A stretch of DNA of 64,000 bases, from positions 1,013,110 through 1,077,109 of the forward strand of contig FP929036.1 of NCBI GenBank assembly GCA_000209815.1. Direction: 5' to 3'. The DNA is from Butyrivibrio fibrisolvens 16/4 (lineage in GTDB: Bacteria; Bacillota; Clostridia; Lachnospirales; Lachnospiraceae). The notes below the pieces were generated by a model. It did not search any database. It worked only from the letters and a program-made list of their open reading frames with translations, and was not told where the DNA came from. This document shows, one piece after another, positions 50,792-58,695 of this stretch. Made by a program: the position numbers and the translations under genes. Position 1 is the first letter of the stretch. Each line of letters opens with the position of its first letter.

Positions 50792-51688
50792 ATGAAAAAG
50801 AATTTTATCAACAAAGTAACAGGATTAACTTTAGTGGGAGCACTTGCAGTTTCGGGATTTACAGCTTGCGGAGCTAGCGCTTCTTCTAGTGATGTAGCTG
50901 GTACAGATGAGGCAACAGTAGAGTCTGCATCAAGTGCAGCAGGATATAGAACATTAGATGAAATCAAGGAAAGCGGAACAATCAACATCGGTGTATTTTC
51001 TGATAAGAGTCCATTTGGTTTCGTTGATGAAAATGGTGAGTACGCTGGATACGATGTATATTTTGCAGAGCGTATCGGTGAAGACCTTGGTGTAAAAATC
51101 AATTATGTTTCTACAGAGGCAGCAAATAGAATTGAATATCTTCAGACAGGAAAGGTGGATATTATCTTAGCTAACTTTACAGTTACTGAGGAGCGTGCTC
51201 AGGAGGTTGATTTTGCACTTCCTTATATGAACGTAGCACTTGGTGTTGTTTCACCAGATTCAGCAGTTGTAGAAAGCCTTGATGACCTTGGTGCAGATGA
51301 TCAGATTATTGTAATCTCAGGTACAACAGCAGAGACTTATCTTACAAAGAACTATCCAGATATCAAGCTTCAGAAGTATGATGCTTACGCAGAGGCAAAG
51401 ACAGCATTTGAAAACGGCACCGGCGTAGCTTGGGCTAATGATAATACAGAAGTTATCGCATTCTCTCTTGAGAACGAAGGCTATACAGTAGGTATTCCAT
51501 CACTTGGAGATCAGGATACAATCGCACCTGCTGTAACAAAGGGAAATGACACACTTCTCAAGTGGCTCAACGAGGAAATCGAGACACTTGGTACAGAGAA
51601 CTTCTTCCATGCAGATTATGAGGCAACACTTCTAGATACTTATGGTGCAGATTATGAAGATACACTTGTATTAGAAGGTGGAAAGTAA
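50792..51688 (+). CDS. polar amino-acid ABC transporter binding lipoprotein
   Basis: A 298-residue SBP_bac_3 protein. Lipobox TACG context (Cys about 26, GFTACGAS). Typical lobes: SGTINIGVFSDKSPFGFVDENGEYAGYDVYFAERIG and ILANFTVTEERAQEVDFALPYM, with ligand-carboxylate Arg in TEERAQ. The sulfur-related neighbours and Rrf2-type operator make cystine or a related sulfur amino acid the best guess. Two permeases and an ATPase follow. Confidence 0.88.
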   Translation: MKKNFINKVTGLTLVGALAVSGFTACGASASSSDVAGTDEATVESASSAAGYRTLDEIKESGTINIGVFSDKSPFGFVDENGEYAGYDVYFAERIGEDLGVKINYVSTEAANRIEYLQTGKVDIILANFTVTEERAQEVDFALPYMNVALGVVSPDSAVVESLDDLGADDQIIVISGTTAETYLTKNYPDIKLQKYDAYAEAKTAFENGTGVAWANDNTEVIAFSLENEGYTVGIPSLGDQDTIAPAVTKGNDTLLKWLNEEIETLGTENFFHADYEATLLDTYGADYEDTLVLEGGK

Positions 51689-51739
51689 AATTTTTATAAT
51701 TCGTGTTTACGATATGAAAGGAACAGTTAACCTGAAGTA

Positions 51740-52398
51740 ATGGATAAGGATATTCTTATTGGATATCTCCCACTATACAAGGAAGCACTCATATTAACAC
51801 TAAAGATTGGATGGCAGGGCATTTTACTAGCGTTTGTGATAGGACTAATAGGCTCTGCCATCGTACATTTTAGGGTGCGAGTGCTAAAAAGCATATTGGG
51901 AGTATATATTGAAATTTTTAGAAACACACCACTTTTGGTGCAGTTATTTTTATTTATTTTGCCTTGCCAAAGGTGGGCATACAAATCACAGCAGAAACCT
52001 GTGGTGTACTGGGACTTGGTCTTTTAGGTGGAGCCTACATGATTGAAACTTTTAGAAGTGGTGTAGAGGCTATTCCTAATATTCAGACAGAGAGTGCAGC
52101 AAGTCTTGGGATGAGTAAATTTCAGATTTTGTGGCACATAATATTGCCTCAGGCAATCACCATAAGTGTGCCAGGACTTCTTGCAAATGTAATCTTCCTT
52201 TTAAAGGAGACCTCAGTATTTTCTACAATCAGCCTTATGGATTTAATGTTTACCGCAAAGGATTTGATTGGTATGTATGCAAAGACTATAGAATGCCTTT
52301 TCCTTTTGGTGGTGTTCTACCTGATAATGCTTCTTCCTATTTCTATCATAGGAGCAATAGTAGAAAGGAGGATGCGTTATGGCCAGTTTGGGAATTGA
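51740..52398 (+). CDS. amino-acid ABC transporter permease (frameshifted)
   Basis: A His/Glu/Gln-type permease of about 219 residues when repaired, with four to five helices and the EAA-like loop SAASLGMSKFQILWHIILPQAI. The frame breaks in the T-rich stretch 51946-51960, where one T appears to be missing; repaired, it reads LFLFYFALPKVGIQITAETCG. It overlaps the next permease gene by 20 bases. Confidence 0.85.
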
Positions 52399-53053
52399 TG
52401 TTTTGTTTAAAGGTACAAACTTTCTTAGACTTCTCCAGGGATTATGGGTATCTATTGAAATCAGCTTGATATCAGTAGTGCTTAGTATTTTCCTTGGACT
52501 GGTGGTAGGAGTTTTGATGACAGTAAATAATAAGATCTTACACGCATTTCTTAAGGTTTATCTTGAAACTGTAAGAATCATGCCACAGATGGTTTTATTG
52601 TTTATTGTATATTTTGGAACCACAAGAGTTTTTGGCTGGGACATGTCGGCTGAATCATCAGCGATTTTCGTATTTACGTTTTGGGGAACAGCAGAGATGG
52701 GAGATTTGGTTAGAGGTTCTATAAAAAGTATCCCAATCATACAGTTTGAATCAGCTTGGGCGCTAGGAATGGATAAACTACAGACATATTTTTATATTAT
52801 CCTTCCACAGACAGTTAGACGTTTGATTCCACTATCTATAAATCTTATTACTAGAATGATTAAGACAACATCCCTTGTAATGATGATTGGTATTGTGGAA
52901 GTTCTGAAGGTGGCTCAACAGATTATAGAAGCAAATAGAAAGACTTCGCCAAATGCGGCATTTGGAGTTTTTCTGGTGGTGTTTTTACTATATTTCATTG
53001 TGTGCTGGCCTATTAGCAGGCTTGCCGCTTACTTGGAAAAAAGGTGGGCATAA
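52379..53053 (+). CDS. amino-acid ABC transporter permease
   Basis: A 224-residue inner-membrane permease of the HisM/GlnP family. The helical core contains the EAA loop FESAWALGMDKLQTYFYIILPQTVRRLIP. AGGAGG lies about 9 bases upstream inside the preceding gene. Pairs with the upstream permease to form a heterodimeric channel. Confidence 0.92.
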   Translation: MASLGIDVLFKGTNFLRLLQGLWVSIEISLISVVLSIFLGLVVGVLMTVNNKILHAFLKVYLETVRIMPQMVLLFIVYFGTTRVFGWDMSAESSAIFVFTFWGTAEMGDLVRGSIKSIPIIQFESAWALGMDKLQTYFYIILPQTVRRLIPLSINLITRMIKTTSLVMMIGIVEVLKVAQQIIEANRKTSPNAAFGVFLVVFLLYFIVCWPISRLAAYLEKRWA

Positions 53054-53794
53054 ATGAGCGAATTATTGAAAGTAACACATTTACATAAAGAGTTTGGACC
53101 AAACGTGGTTTTAAAGGATATTAATTTGTCTGTAAAAAAGGGAGAGGTAGTAGTAATTATTGGCCCTTCCGGCTGCGGAAAAAGTACATTCCTTAGATGC
53201 TTAAATGGATTAGAGGAAATACAAAGTGGAGTAATAACTGTGGATGGCCTTCCAGTGGAGGCTGGAAAGCGTGATATTACAAAGCTTCGACAGAAGATAG
53301 GAATGGTATTCCAGTCTTACGAGCTATTTCCTCACAAGACGGTTTTGGAAAATATTATACTGGCTCCTACAAAGGTGCAGAAAAGAACAAGAGAGGATGC
53401 TGTTAAAGAAGCGTTAGAGCTGCTGGATAAGGTGGATTTGGTAGATAAAAAGGATTATTATCCTCGTCAGCTTTCCGGTGGACAAAAGCAGAGAGTGGCA
53501 ATAGTACGAGCACTTCTTATGCATCCAGAGGTAATATTATTTGATGAGGTTACAGCAGCTCTTGATCCTGAGATGGTTCACGAGGTTTTAGAGACTATGC
53601 TGGCATTGGCAAAGGCTGGTTCTACTATGCTTATTGTCACCCATGAAATGGAATTCGCAAAAGCGATAGCGGATAGAATTATTTTTTTAGACAAGGGTGA
53701 TATCGTAGAGGAAACAGAGGATGTTAAGGGGTTCTTTGCAGAGCCGGAAACAGAGCGAGCTAAGAAGTTTTTAAAGACCTTTGCTTATGAATAA
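53054..53794 (+). CDS. amino-acid ABC transporter ATP-binding protein, GlnQ type
   Basis: A 246-residue ATPase that starts immediately after the permease stop. Walker A GPSGCGKST, Q-loop FQSYELFPHKT, signature LSGGQKQRVAIVRAL, Walker B VILFDEVTAALDPE and switch His in IVTHEM. It completes the importer with the two permeases and the binding lipoprotein. Confidence 0.95.
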   Translation: MSELLKVTHLHKEFGPNVVLKDINLSVKKGEVVVIIGPSGCGKSTFLRCLNGLEEIQSGVITVDGLPVEAGKRDITKLRQKIGMVFQSYELFPHKTVLENIILAPTKVQKRTREDAVKEALELLDKVDLVDKKDYYPRQLSGGQKQRVAIVRALLMHPEVILFDEVTAALDPEMVHEVLETMLALAKAGSTMLIVTHEMEFAKAIADRIIFLDKGDIVEETEDVKGFFAEPETERAKKFLKTFAYE

Positions 53795-55961: not shown

Positions 55962-55974
55962 TTGGTAAATTACT

Positions 55975-56017
55975 AATAGCTAGTTATCAATTTGGTTGAT
56001 AACTAGCTATTATTTTT
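55975..56017 (+). terminator. terminator after chemoreceptor gene
   Basis: A 16-bp perfect stem (55975-55990 with 55996-56011, loop TTTGG), then ATTTTT. Confidence 0.88.
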
Positions 56018-56034: not shown

Positions 56035-56063
56035 TTGAACCTTGGAGCGATAAAGAATATTAT
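56035..56063 (+). promoter_or_regulatory. promoter of the metNIQ leader
   Basis: TTGAAC (56035-56040), 17-bp spacer, TATTAT (56058-56063). The transcript would begin around 56070 and carry the leader peptide. Confidence 0.7.
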
Positions 56064-56094
56064 AATCATATCTTAAGAGAAAGGAGCAAGATAA

Positions 56095-56214
56095 ATGAAA
56101 AAGATGATGCAGACAACTATGATGCACATGTGCATGCGTCGAATGCTTATCTCCCAGGCAGTTAATGATGGCCCTGGCGCGATGGCTTTTTGTCTTGCGC
56201 CTATTACGGATTAA
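56095..56214 (+). CDS. Met-rich leader peptide of the metNIQ operon
   Basis: A 39-codon open frame, too short for usual gene calls. AAGGAG (56081-56086) lies 8 bases before the ATG. Nine of 39 residues are Met (positions 1, 4, 5, 9, 10, 12, 14, 17, 30), eight of them in the first 17 codons: MKKMMQTTMMHMCMRRML. The antiterminator 5' arm (56151-56172) lies inside the second half of the frame. I infer that ribosome stalling at Met codons in methionine shortage sets the RNA fold ahead of metN. It is unlikely to have another function as a protein. Confidence 0.82.
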   Translation: MKKMMQTTMMHMCMRRMLISQAVNDGPGAMAFCLAPITD

Positions 56215-56271
56215 ATCACCTAGATTTGATTAGCCATTGCCTGGGAGTTAAAAACCTGGCAATGGTTTTTT
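56151..56271 (+). promoter_or_regulatory. transcription attenuator ahead of metNIQ
   Basis: Terminator: CCATTGCC (56234-56241, plus GG) pairs with GGCAATGG (56258-56265, preceded by CC), then TTTTTT. Antiterminator: CTCCCAGGCA (56151-56160) is fully complementary to TGCCTGGGAG (56238-56247), and ATGGC (56168-56172) to GCCAT (56233-56237) with a 7-base bulge. The two folds share 56233-56247, so they exclude each other. There is no S-box, SAM-II/III or T-box signature. Confidence 0.8.
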
Positions 56272-56303
56272 ATTGCCCAAACTGATATGAGGAGATATTT
56301 AGA

Positions 56304-57101
56304 ATGCGCGAAATAGAAATAAAAAGTCTTTGTAAAAGCTTCGTAGATAAGGATACAAAGGTAGATGCTCTTAGAGATATTAATCTTACTGTTGATAAGG
56401 GAGATATCTTTGGAATCATAGGAATGTCTGGAGCTGGCAAAAGTACACTGATTCGATGTTTGAACTACTTAGAGAAACCAACAAGTGGTCAGGTAATCGT
56501 AGAAGGCAAGGAATTAGGACAGCTTAATGAAAAGGAGCTTAGGGAAAAGCGCCAGGATATAGCAATGATATTCCAGCACTTTAATTTGCTTCAGCAGAAG
56601 AATGTTATAGATAACATTATTTTCCCACTTAGCCTTCAGGGAGTTAAGAAAAAGGATGCAAGAGCAAAGGCCTTTGAGCTTCTTTCAAAGGTTGGTTTGG
56701 AGGATAAAGCTAATTCTTATCCTTCACAGCTTTCAGGAGGACAGCAGCAGAGAGTTGCCATCGCAAGAGCTCTTGCTGCAGATCCAAAGATTCTACTATG
56801 CGATGAAGCTACAAGCGCCCTAGATCCACAGACTACAGCATCAATACTTTCATTGCTAAAGGAGATTAATCAGGAATACGGAATTACGATAGTTCTTATC
56901 ACTCATCAGATGTCAGTTGTAAAGGCTATATGTAATAAGGTGGCAGTCCTTGAGGAAGGACAGCTTGTGGAAAGTGGAAGACTTGAAGAGGTTAATCTTC
57001 CAGAGGACAAGTTTTTTTGGCTGAATAAGGAAAATGAGCTAAAGAATAAAGAGTTCGCTAAGAACAATTACAGCAAGGAGGTAAGAAACTATGTGGGATA
57101 G
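56304..57101 (+). CDS. metN: methionine ABC transporter ATP-binding protein, short form
   Basis: A 265-residue ATPase for D/L-methionine import. Walker A GMSGAGKST, Q-loop FQHFNLLQQK, signature LSGGQQQRVAIARAL, Walker B ILLCDEATSALDP, switch His in LITHQM. Typical MetN has about 340 residues with a C-terminal NIL/ACT domain that binds methionine and shuts transport off; here only a short tail of about 40 residues follows the ATPase core. Feedback at protein level is thus probably absent. It overlaps metI by 11 bases. Confidence 0.92.
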   Translation: MREIEIKSLCKSFVDKDTKVDALRDINLTVDKGDIFGIIGMSGAGKSTLIRCLNYLEKPTSGQVIVEGKELGQLNEKELREKRQDIAMIFQHFNLLQQKNVIDNIIFPLSLQGVKKKDARAKAFELLSKVGLEDKANSYPSQLSGGQQQRVAIARALAADPKILLCDEATSALDPQTTASILSLLKEINQEYGITIVLITHQMSVVKAICNKVAVLEEGQLVESGRLEEVNLPEDKFFWLNKENELKNKEFAKNNYSKEVRNYVG

Positions 57102-57750
57102 CACAACAATTAACATGATATTAGAGGGAATTGTTGGAACAGTATACATGAGTATAGTTTCTACATTCTTTGGATATGTACTGGGACTTCCAATGGGAGT
57201 ATTACTTACTATTTCAGACAAAGACGGTCTTAGACCAAATCGTGCATTATATAAGGTTTTAGATGCAACATCAAATGTTGTTCGAAGCATTCCGTTTGTT
57301 ATTTTGCTGATACTTCTTATTCCATTTACAAGACTTGTAGTTGGAAAGAGCTATGGTACATCAGCTACAATCGTTCCACTTGTTATTTGTGCAGCACCAT
57401 ATATTGCTAGAATGGTGGAGTCATCATTAAAGGAAGTGGACGATGGCGTTATCGAAGCGGCAAAGGCAATGGGAGCGTCAAATATTCAGATAGTTTTCAA
57501 GGTGCTTCTGGTAGAAGCCAGAACTTCTCTTATCACCAACGCGACAATAGCACTTGGAACAGTTCTTGGATATTCAGCAATGGCTGGTACTGTTGGCGGT
57601 GGCGGACTTGGAGATATTGCAGTTCGCTACGGATATTACAGATACCAGCTAGACATAATGATTGTCACAGTAATTTTACTAATTGTACTGTTTCAGATTT
57701 TCCAGAATACTGGAATGTTTATAGCAAGAAAGCTTAATCATAAGATATAA
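57091..57750 (+). CDS. metI: methionine ABC transporter permease
   Basis: A 219-residue inner-membrane permease, the MetI length, with five helices. Family marks: VRSIPFVILLILLIPFTR, EAAKAMGASNIQIVFKVLLVEA (ATPase-docking loop) and AGTVGGGGLGDIAVRYGY. It starts inside metN, so it is translated with it. Confidence 0.95.
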   Translation: MWDSTTINMILEGIVGTVYMSIVSTFFGYVLGLPMGVLLTISDKDGLRPNRALYKVLDATSNVVRSIPFVILLILLIPFTRLVVGKSYGTSATIVPLVICAAPYIARMVESSLKEVDDGVIEAAKAMGASNIQIVFKVLLVEARTSLITNATIALGTVLGYSAMAGTVGGGGLGDIAVRYGYYRYQLDIMIVTVILLIVLFQIFQNTGMFIARKLNHKI

Positions 57751-57813: not shown

Positions 57814-58695
57814 ATGAAAAAGAAAATTTTAGCAGGATTATTAACAACAACATTTACAGTAGCAGCTCTTACAGGATGTGGCAGCGCAGCAAATACTAAC
57901 ACAGCTGCAACTGAAGAGGCTACAGGGGAAGCAGAGGAGACCGTAGAGGCAGCAAGCGGCGAGCTTACTACAATTAAGGTGGCAGCATCTGCTACACCAC
58001 ACGCAGAAATTTTAGAGTTTGCTGCACCACTTCTTGAGGCAAAGGGCTACAAGCTTGATGTAACAGTATTCGATGATTATGTTCAGCCAAACCTCGTAGT
58101 AGAATCTGGTGAGTTTGATGCAAACTATTTCCAGCATGTACCATATCTTGACAGCTTCAATGAGGAGCAGGGCACACACCTTGTAGATGCTGGAGATATT
58201 CACTATGAGCCATTTGGAATTTACCCAGGTACAAAGGCATCTCTTGATGAGGTAGCAGATGGTGATGTAATCGCTATTCCTAATGACACAACAAACGAGG
58301 CTAGAGCACTCCTTCTTCTTCAGGACAATGGACTTCTTACACTTAAGAAAGGTGCTGGTCTTACAGCTACAATCAATGACATTGTAGAGAATCCAAAGAA
58401 CATTGAGTTCCAGGAGCTTGAGGCAGCACAGGTTGCTCGCGTAAAAGATGAGGTAGCATTTGTGGTACTTAATGGTAACTATGCTCTTGAGGCAGGTTTT
58501 TCAGTAGCAAAGGATTCTATCGCTTATGAGGCTACAGATTCAGAGGCTGCAAAGACATACGTTAATATCATTGCTGTAGAGGAAGGCAACGAGAACAATG
58601 AAGCCATCAAAGCATTAGTAGATGTTCTTAAGTCCGATGATGTTAAGAAGTTTATTGCTGATAACTATGATGGCGCTGTAGTAGCATTTGAATAA
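57814..58695 (+). CDS. metQ: methionine-binding lipoprotein, NlpA family
   Basis: A 293-residue surface lipoprotein. Lipobox LTGC (Cys about residue 22), then an acidic linker and the NlpA domain (TIKVAASATPHAEILEFAAPLLEAKGYKLDVTVFDDYVQPN, FDANYFQHVPYLDSFN). It catches methionine for MetNI. GGAG lies 9 bases upstream. Third gene of the operon, closed by a strong terminator. Confidence 0.95.
   Translation: MKKKILAGLLTTTFTVAALTGCGSAANTNTAATEEATGEAEETVEAASGELTTIKVAASATPHAEILEFAAPLLEAKGYKLDVTVFDDYVQPNLVVESGEFDANYFQHVPYLDSFNEEQGTHLVDAGDIHYEPFGIYPGTKASLDEVADGDVIAIPNDTTNEARALLLLQDNGLLTLKKGAGLTATINDIVENPKNIEFQELEAAQVARVKDEVAFVVLNGNYALEAGFSVAKDSIAYEATDSEAAKTYVNIIAVEEGNENNEAIKALVDVLKSDDVKKFIADNYDGAVVAFE

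Follow-up and report, generated by a model that had tools for sequence, protein, structure and literature searches.

A methionine-rich leader upstream of metNIQ in Butyrivibrio fibrisolvens 16/4 looks like a member of a Cys/Met leader-attenuator family of Clostridia

The trp, his, leu, and ilv leaders are the classical attenuators, and the ribosome-binding site of trpL forms a self-limiting pairing. In many Firmicutes, the kinds of genes considered here are controlled by the S-box and the Met T-box, which use an aptamer for SAM or uncharged tRNA and have no leader frame, unlike the leader upstream of the metNIQ genes in Butyrivibrio fibrisolvens 16/4. This leader resembles the trp, his, leu, and ilv attenuators in its control-codon peptide, its mutually exclusive antiterminator and terminator, and its predicted termination by default when it is not translated. 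It differs from them in that the control codons would be those for Met and Cys and that the antiterminator would be excluded by the leader's own ribosome-binding site together with the 3′ end of the frame.

Cys leader peptides precede the cys operons of Mycobacterium and its relatives (Actinobacteria), likewise placing Cys codons ahead of sulfur genes; their runs of Cys codons lie close to the stop, and a conserved terminator hairpin is absent (PMC1262725). The clostridial family described below fails this pattern, as its core lies 14 to 16 codons after the start (70 of 91 leaders, with starts chosen by Shine-Dalgarno strength) and mostly 20 to 27 codons before the stop, and a terminator is present. 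In Rhodobacterales, uORFC-8-2 before cysS has tandem Cys codons at positions 14 and 15 and a terminator, and attenuation by uncharged tRNA-Cys is presumed (PMC8632094). It shares the Cys-codon leader and the terminator with the clostridial family and differs in its host (Alphaproteobacteria), its target (a synthetase gene), and the location of the Cys codons in the first stem; the accessible part of the report does not mention a ribosome-binding-site helix (PMC8632094). The accessible parts of two further reports describe a histidine leader peptide before hisS/hisZ in Bacilli (PMC2965389) and a Leu-rich attenuator of ilv in S. aureus (PMC5794164), which are also Firmicute leader-peptide attenuators, for other amino acids and genes. 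A search of open-access papers for Met- or Cys-coded leader attenuators in Firmicutes turned up no such control of sulfur amino acid genes and nothing recognised as this family. The kind of control is known; the present case departs from the known ones in its amino acids and its lineage, in the ribosome-binding-site helix, and in what looks like retuning of the control codons.

The window (the whole stretch analyzed, 64,000 nucleotides) belongs to a genome of 3.16 Mb in one contig (G000), which has 28 relatives of the same genus in the collection. The leader and the genes behind it comprise the following features.

55974-56017, + strand: intrinsic terminator of the upstream transcription unit, an 18-bp stem followed by a T-run
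56035-56063, + strand: promoter-like TTGAAC-17-TATTAT, a weak call from a consensus scan only (3 found versus 1.6 expected)
56095-56214, + strand: Met-rich leader peptide frame, ATG start and TAA stop, 39 codons with nine Met
56119-56145, + strand: putative sensing codons 9 to 17 (MMHMCMRRM), with five Met and one Cys in the 10-codon zone from −8 to +1 around CGA
56304-57101, + strand: metN, ABC ATPase without NIL domain (TIGR02314, 328 bits, below the cut-off of 499.7)
57091-57750, + strand: metI, permease (NF008049, 232.6 bits, above the cut-off of 212)
57814-58695, + strand: metQ, NlpA-type lipoprotein (PF03180, 283 bits)

The leader frame encodes MKKMMQTTMMHMCMRRMLISQAVNDGPGAMAFCLAPITD and is preceded by a Shine-Dalgarno sequence, AAGGAG, at 56081-56086. 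This frame, with its good ribosome site and with eight of its nine Met in the first 17 codons, is present as the preliminary description had reported it. At 2.5 to 3% Met, the binomial chance of at least seven Met in the 16 post-start codons is 6e-8 to 2e-7, an estimate uncorrected for the cluster having been picked by eye. The 269-nt leader region folds at −77 kcal/mol (z = −3.92), and none of 200 shuffles was equally stable. A scan of the window with 4,227 Rfam models, among which we count the T-box, retrieved no element of any family at gathering scores, S-box (RF00162) included, and at E values up to 1, the sole match was a miRNA family on the upstream terminator. MetN aligns to TIGR02314 over positions 2 to 228 of 343, and a Pfam search found no NIL domain in it, so that the earlier remark on its absence holds. 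Relative to the NCBIfam methionine-transport cut-offs, MetN and MetQ score below theirs and MetI above its own.

A second transporter lies upstream of metNIQ (window 50792-53794), with a solute-binding protein (GVFSDKSPFGFVDENGEYAGYDVYFAERIG), permease frames, and an ATPase. The solute-binding protein resembles those that are preceded by the leader in other genera; the gap between its gene and the previous frame is 30 bases, which leaves no room for a leader. The first permease (window 51740-52398) is split into overlapping frames at 51740-52027 and 51964-52398, which reflects either a sequence error or a broken gene.

All 29 genomes of the genus are covered by the 30 MetI-type loci that were read. 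The leader precedes metN at nine of these loci, in nine genomes (L031-L036 and L039-L041), each time with a Shine-Dalgarno sequence, a start, an open frame, the core MCMxRMLxSQ, and the tail MAxCxAP. No metNIQ leader was found in the other 20 genomes: four loci (L037, L038, L042, and L043) have a close MetN yet no leader, and none was seen at the remaining 17 MetI-type loci. This patchy occurrence, including the four cases with a close MetN, counts against the proposed function. A search for the core pattern with up to three mismatches retrieved 11 of the 29 genomes, and the reversed control retrieved none. Six genomes (G000, G008, G011, G020, G022, and G023) have a Cys/Met-rich sister leader ahead of a DUF2292-type gene and metK, the small gene between leader and metK in G000 being DUF2292. 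G012 is probably a seventh, its contig stopping just before the metK start.

Several other elements occupy the metK region. Five other genomes (G004, G019, G021, G025, and G027; loci L086, L087, L088, L091, and L097) carry, where the window-type leader would lie, a different Cys-rich leader (for example, MRTTISTAMMNTCMCKACCQTSICCTCKTVC) and a terminator-like hairpin, followed by a tRNA-like element and metK. In 12 genomes of the genus, a tRNA-like cloverleaf, which we take to resemble tRNA-Cys, lies between the terminator of the metK leader and the DUF2292-type gene. It is located at L081 1412-1484 in G000, about 3.3 kb past the end of the window, and also occurs in L079, L085-L088, L090, L091, L097-L099, and L104 (11 of 28 metK loci examined, plus L079). 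Its anticodon arm in G000 has a 5-bp stem and a GGCA tetraloop and no 7-nt anticodon loop; the Rfam tRNA model gives 38 to 39 bits in two loci, and ARAGORN calls none. A hairpin with a T-run lies between the DUF2292-type gene and metK (L081 1690-1740, GAGGTTCAAAATCA...GGTTTTGAGCCTC in G000), recurs in L092, L093, L095, L096, and L100, and could be a second terminator.

The RNA structure of the leader was compared in an alignment (A1) of 16 leaders, nine from metN and seven from metK, and involves the following elements of the window.

56083-56094, + strand: 5′ strand of helix P1, the leader ribosome-binding site GGAGCAAGATAA, pairing with 56189-56201
56151-56160, + strand: arm A, the antiterminator 5′ arm inside the leader frame (CTCCCAGGCA), pairing with 56238-56247 and covarying
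56176-56201, + strand: candidate small hairpin GGCGC/GCGCC, a rival of P1 for its 3′ strand, found by eye
56182-56187, + strand: candidate inner antiterminator strand AUGGCU, pairing with 56232-56237
56189-56201, + strand: 3′ strand of P1, around the CLAP codons, with P1 covariation
56232-56247, + strand: arm C, the antiterminator 3′ arm and terminator 5′ arm, from sequence and covariation
56233-56271, + strand: intrinsic terminator (C:D) with T-run

Without prompting, RNAalifold returned a long-range helix, P1, between the ribosome-binding site GGAGCAAGACAA and UUGUCUUGCGCC, the CLAP codons. Paired bases fill 98.9% of the cells of P1, 92.9% of those of the antiterminator A:C, and 96.6% of those of the terminator, with three pairs changed on both sides in P1 and four in the terminator. 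P1 and the antiterminator are mutually exclusive, and P1, overlooked in the preliminary description, is the best-supported extra helix. The conserved end of the peptide, CLAP, is explained by P1, and SQ (TCC CAG) is explained by arm A. By eye, the small GGCGC/GCGCC hairpin has 5 bp in 12 of the 16 leaders and 4 bp in three, with one mismatch in the metK leader of G020.

The preliminary description had proposed an attenuator in which a terminator and a 10-bp antiterminator (56151-56160/56238-56247) share an arm, and both are present in the sequence. The comparison with relatives that it suggested gave Met codons and paired arms that are kept in the nine leader-bearing genomes of the genus, with substitutions beyond the genus, and arms that covary. 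Its inner 5-bp antiterminator arm (56168-56172) did not survive: it pairs in only 73.8% of cells and is probably wrong, AUGGCU pairing better (88.5% of cells, without covariation). The attenuator reading itself is supported by the codons and by the conserved, covarying arms, with P1 as the predicted off state.

Leaders with the core CRMLxS(R/Q) also occur beyond the genus, in Clostridia where the genes behind them are mostly metY and those of cystine-type ABC transporters. With an E-value limit of 0.01, a covariance model built from the 16 leaders matched 28 of the 397 family genomes. Of the resulting loci, 26 lie outside the genus; in 20 of these, the leader is Met/Cys-rich or a close variant, with no ATG start in one (L121), and the other six (L130-L133, L136, and L138) were dropped because they resemble false matches, either to a terminator alone or of another type. 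Because L129 has no core, it was excluded from the statistics, which therefore used 19 of the 26 loci. There, msrA (TIGR00401, above cut-off) follows a Met-rich leader (MMMSMMCMCMHIHGSFVVP) with a terminator-like hairpin, which may be a Met attenuator of its own. The gene behind the leader at L122, L126, L127, and L140 is glutathione-S-transferase-like (by PF13410 at L126 and by eye at the other three), which suggests a sulfur-linked role for that enzyme.

Scanning a collection of 84,980 genomes with TGYCGAATGCTNNNCTCCCRGG gave at least 118 stretches, 80 of them readable; by estimate, fewer than 10 are chance matches. The titles among the matches listed include Lachnospiraceae, Saccharofermentans, Ruminococcaceae, Christensenella, and unclassified Clostridia, as well as one Streptomyces, which looks like chance, and one metagenome-assembled genome called Eggerthellaceae. 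Among these listed matches, the first downstream gene was assigned in 72 of the 80 loci: 34 are metY-like, 28 encode a solute-binding protein, five an amino-acid ABC permease, one a cysteine synthase fragment (cysK), and four are others, so that four gene clusters cover 68 of the 72. At 16 of the 34 metY loci listed, metY is followed by a cysK-like gene. Representative proteins, one of each type, exceeded the cut-offs of TIGR01326 (O-acetylhomoserine sulfhydrylase) and TIGR01139 (cysteine synthase A). A single solute-binding protein was scanned; it fuses an SBP_bac_3 domain to a MetQ/NlpA domain and scores below the cystine and Met transport cut-offs, and the label "cystine-type" therefore expresses homology only. 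Pattern matches were found in 24 of 397 genomes sampled across the family (control, 2) and, counted without reading the loci, in 8 of 391 sampled across the class (two in the genus and six from three other families; reversed control, 1). The metNIQ element looks like a Met-rich member of this clostridial family of Cys/Met leader attenuators, which seems not to have been described before.

A wide set was assembled from 115 loci (16 from the genus, the 19 of 26 family loci, and 80 from the database), of which 103 were read and 91 are nonredundant. Twelve loci were dropped: five metK leaders (L084, L098, L099, L104, and L079) and L140 failed the filter for a contiguous A:C pairing, no start was accepted in L137, L156, and L200, L196 and L206 are cut off, and L158 (Streptomyces) looks like a chance match. 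The failure of five of the seven metK leaders at this filter counts against the proposed attenuator. In the 91 sequences, the duplex energies of cognate partners were −14.44 kcal/mol for P1 (−10.95 when permuted), −21.46 for A:C (−19.36), and −15.97 for C:D (−14.58), and each beat all 5,000 permutations. A control pairing of the Shine-Dalgarno sequence with arm A gave no signal in the same 91 sequences, as 1,570 of 5,000 permutations reached the cognate value.

P1 and A:C also hold in three smaller sets. The wide set includes one leader with a wrong start and a wrong C arm (L085), which also enters the Shine-Dalgarno count, the codon means, and the start distances and folding models given for that set; without it (90 sequences), P1 and A:C still lie above all 5,000 permutations; they also beat every permutation in the 24 genus and family leaders that were not pattern-selected. 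Both pairings hold as well in 47 of 53 strict sequences, L085 absent, whose anchor was not chosen by complementarity: P1 beats all 5,000 permutations, and two control pairings gave nothing (1,882 and 3,813 of 5,000). Single positions covary in these 47 sequences, with 41 GC and 6 AU at A+6, all paired, and 42 GC and 3 AU at A+8; A+12 gave no signal of cochange there. The predicted P1 takes in at least two of the four Shine-Dalgarno bases in 70 of the 91 leaders.

The codons of the leaders differ with the genes that they precede. In the 10-codon zone, the metNIQ leaders have four to five Met and one Cys (three Cys in G017), and the seven metK leaders have two to four Met and four to five Cys. 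All five genomes with both leaders aligned (G000, G011, G012, G020, and G022) show this difference, with five Met and one Cys before metN versus two to four Met and four to five Cys before metK. Eight of the nine metNIQ leaders carry Arg or Phe at the codon immediately before CGA (−1), and all nine keep at least one Cys codon, at −3. Among leaders for which the search did not require it, Cys stands before CGA in 15 of the 17 from the family and in 3 of the 8 from the genus; the overall value of 92% is inflated, because the search pattern required this Cys in 66 of the 91 leaders. Mean Met/Cys counts, over rows that are partly pattern-selected, are 4.89/1.22 for metNIQ (9 leaders), 2.80/2.90 for cystine-type ABC transporters (41), and 2.06/1.89 for metY (35), and the seven cystine-type rows that were not pattern-selected have means of 3.4 Met and 3.7 Cys. 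The Mann-Whitney P value of 3e-7 treats related, partly pattern-selected leaders as independent and is not to be taken at face value.

The control codons fit the pathway of the downstream genes, with one exception that counts against this pattern: L128, the sole locus of the wide set with metQ first (metQ assigned by eye), is not skewed to Met, with three Met and three Cys. The metNIQ leaders look as if a cysteine-type sensor had been retuned for methionine before a methionine importer, with one Cys codon left. This retuning would be a single event, because the metNIQ leaders form one lineage, in one genus; the change would have run from Cys to Met. The earlier claim that the leader is coded for Met stands for the Met-rich metNIQ group and has to be widened for the family, which is coded by Cys as well as by Met and most members of which have Cys at the critical codon.

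The leader, three covarying helices, the gene associations, and the codon differences are all read from the sequences, and together they make it very probable that the element is a ribosome-mediated transcription attenuator of metNIQ that responds to how much charged Met-tRNA is available and, to a minor extent, to Cys. Leader translation, stalling, the direction of the response, and the need for a second ribosome are what we infer in the following mechanism. When the leader is untranslated or the ribosomes have already passed through, the ribosome-binding site and the 3′ end of the leader frame would pair as P1; because P1 crosses the antiterminator, arm C would then fold into the terminator. 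When Met is short, a ribosome would stall at about codons 12 to 15, just upstream of arm A, leaving A free. A following ribosome on the start codon would keep P1 open, and A would pair with C, with readthrough into metNIQ. A ribosome that moves on would cover arm A, and the terminator would form.

The models of this switch use nested equilibrium folding with assumed ribosome footprints and ignore kinetics and pseudoknots. Averaged over the nine metNIQ leaders with the 14/14 footprint, the RNA without ribosomes gives probabilities of 0.80 for P1, 0.04 for A:C, and 0.51 for the terminator (ceiling, about 0.53). With one ribosome stalled at −4 to −1 and a second on the start codon, A:C rises to 0.68 to 0.84 and the terminator falls to 0.10 to 0.16. 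The 12/12 footprint gives 0.66 to 0.86 for A:C in this two-ribosome state, and the largest one, 16/17, gives weaker values (0.70 at −2, 0.48 at −1, and 0.00 at 0). A ribosome over arm A abolishes A:C (0.00), and one at the stop codon gives A:C of 0.32, 0.28, and 0.17 versus terminator values of 0.34, 0.39, and 0.34. A lone stalled ribosome hardly shifts the nine-leader average (A:C at most 0.32 across three footprint sizes), which counts against the mechanism. The leader of the window flips more easily than this average in the model, a single ribosome sufficing: with the A site at −2 or −1, A:C is 0.59 or 0.84, versus 0.08 in the free RNA, and at −5 to −3, only 0.01 to 0.07. In the wide set, A:C is already favored in the bare RNA (0.58 against 0.31), so that P1 as the off state is clear only in the metNIQ group; A:C there reaches 0.77 with a start-codon ribosome, 0.82 to 0.84 with stall and start-codon ribosome, and 0.00 with a ribosome on A.

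The 14 to 16 codons between start and core leave room for one more ribosome. It is conceivable, though rather doubtful, that the element works as a two-ribosome AND gate, in which readthrough requires a stall some 13 to 14 codons in as well as a second ribosome on the start codon, and in which the signal swaps between Cys and Met by the codons of the zone while the RNA switch stays fixed. Met shortage should deplete the initiator tRNA too and lower initiation at the leader, which counts against Met sensing; under an AND gate, the expected response to Met is bell-shaped, as extreme lack of Met would starve the initiator tRNA as well.

It is improbable that the metNIQ leader has remained chiefly a sensor of cysteine, in which stalling at codon 13, the conserved Cys, would be decisive and the Met codons would play a secondary part. 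The family does look Cys-coded, given the Cys before CGA in 15 of 17 leaders found without requiring it, and a stall at the Cys retained at −3 in all nine metNIQ leaders, together with a start-codon ribosome, brings A:C to 0.84 in the model. The Arg or Phe at −1 in eight of the nine and the four to five Met in the zone, set against the two to four Met and four to five Cys of the metK leaders in the same genus, speak for Met as the main signal. A still smaller chance is given to a nascent-chain arrest peptide, in which the conserved (C)RMLxS(Q/R) would itself stall the ribosome in response to Cys, Met, SAM, or another small molecule. A strongly conserved stretch, CGA-ATG-CT, has no pairing partner that we could find, and the Met after CGA is kept in 24 of 25 leaders that were not pattern-selected; codon stalling alone leaves this ATG unexplained, because a modeled stall at it (+1) gives termination. 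Arm A, however, accounts for TCC CAG GC and P1 for CLAP, the residues ahead of the zone vary freely, and CGAATGCT is invariant in the 80 database loci because the search pattern demanded it. A metabolite-binding riboswitch of a new SAM or methionine class, with the reading frame incidental, would fit the strong conservation, the terminator and antiterminator, and the gene context like that of SAM riboswitches, but it is highly improbable and was rejected for lack of any Rfam match at gathering scores or, save for the miRNA family on the upstream terminator, at E values up to 1, and because each of the nine leaders has a Shine-Dalgarno sequence, a start, and a frame, the Met/Cys content varies with the gene, and P1 pairs the Shine-Dalgarno sequence with coding sequence.

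The proposed attenuator of metNIQ occurs in a genus in which the S-box (RF00162) was found in none of 29 genomes, compared with 310 of 397 sampled genomes of the family. The view that such control of methionine uptake would be unusual in Firmicutes holds in the light of these counts and of the window without Rfam elements. A general mutual exclusion of S-box and leader was considered and rejected, since family genomes with the leader pattern can keep the S-box (G032, G065, and G217 have both). The idea that the leader replaced the S-box at the same gene was likewise abandoned: the S-box-linked metK at L264 is nearer to the second metK of the genus (76 to 78%) than to the leader-controlled one (68%), and for this reason, only the absence of the S-box is claimed.

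For this genus, in which the S-box was not found, the leader offers a regulatory explanation, and the leader shared with other downstream genes hints at sulfur-linked roles for these. Attenuation by Met would be a testable case of a signal amino acid that initiation itself requires. The homologous Cys-rich and Met-rich members of the family would constitute a natural experiment on an attenuator changing its amino acid.
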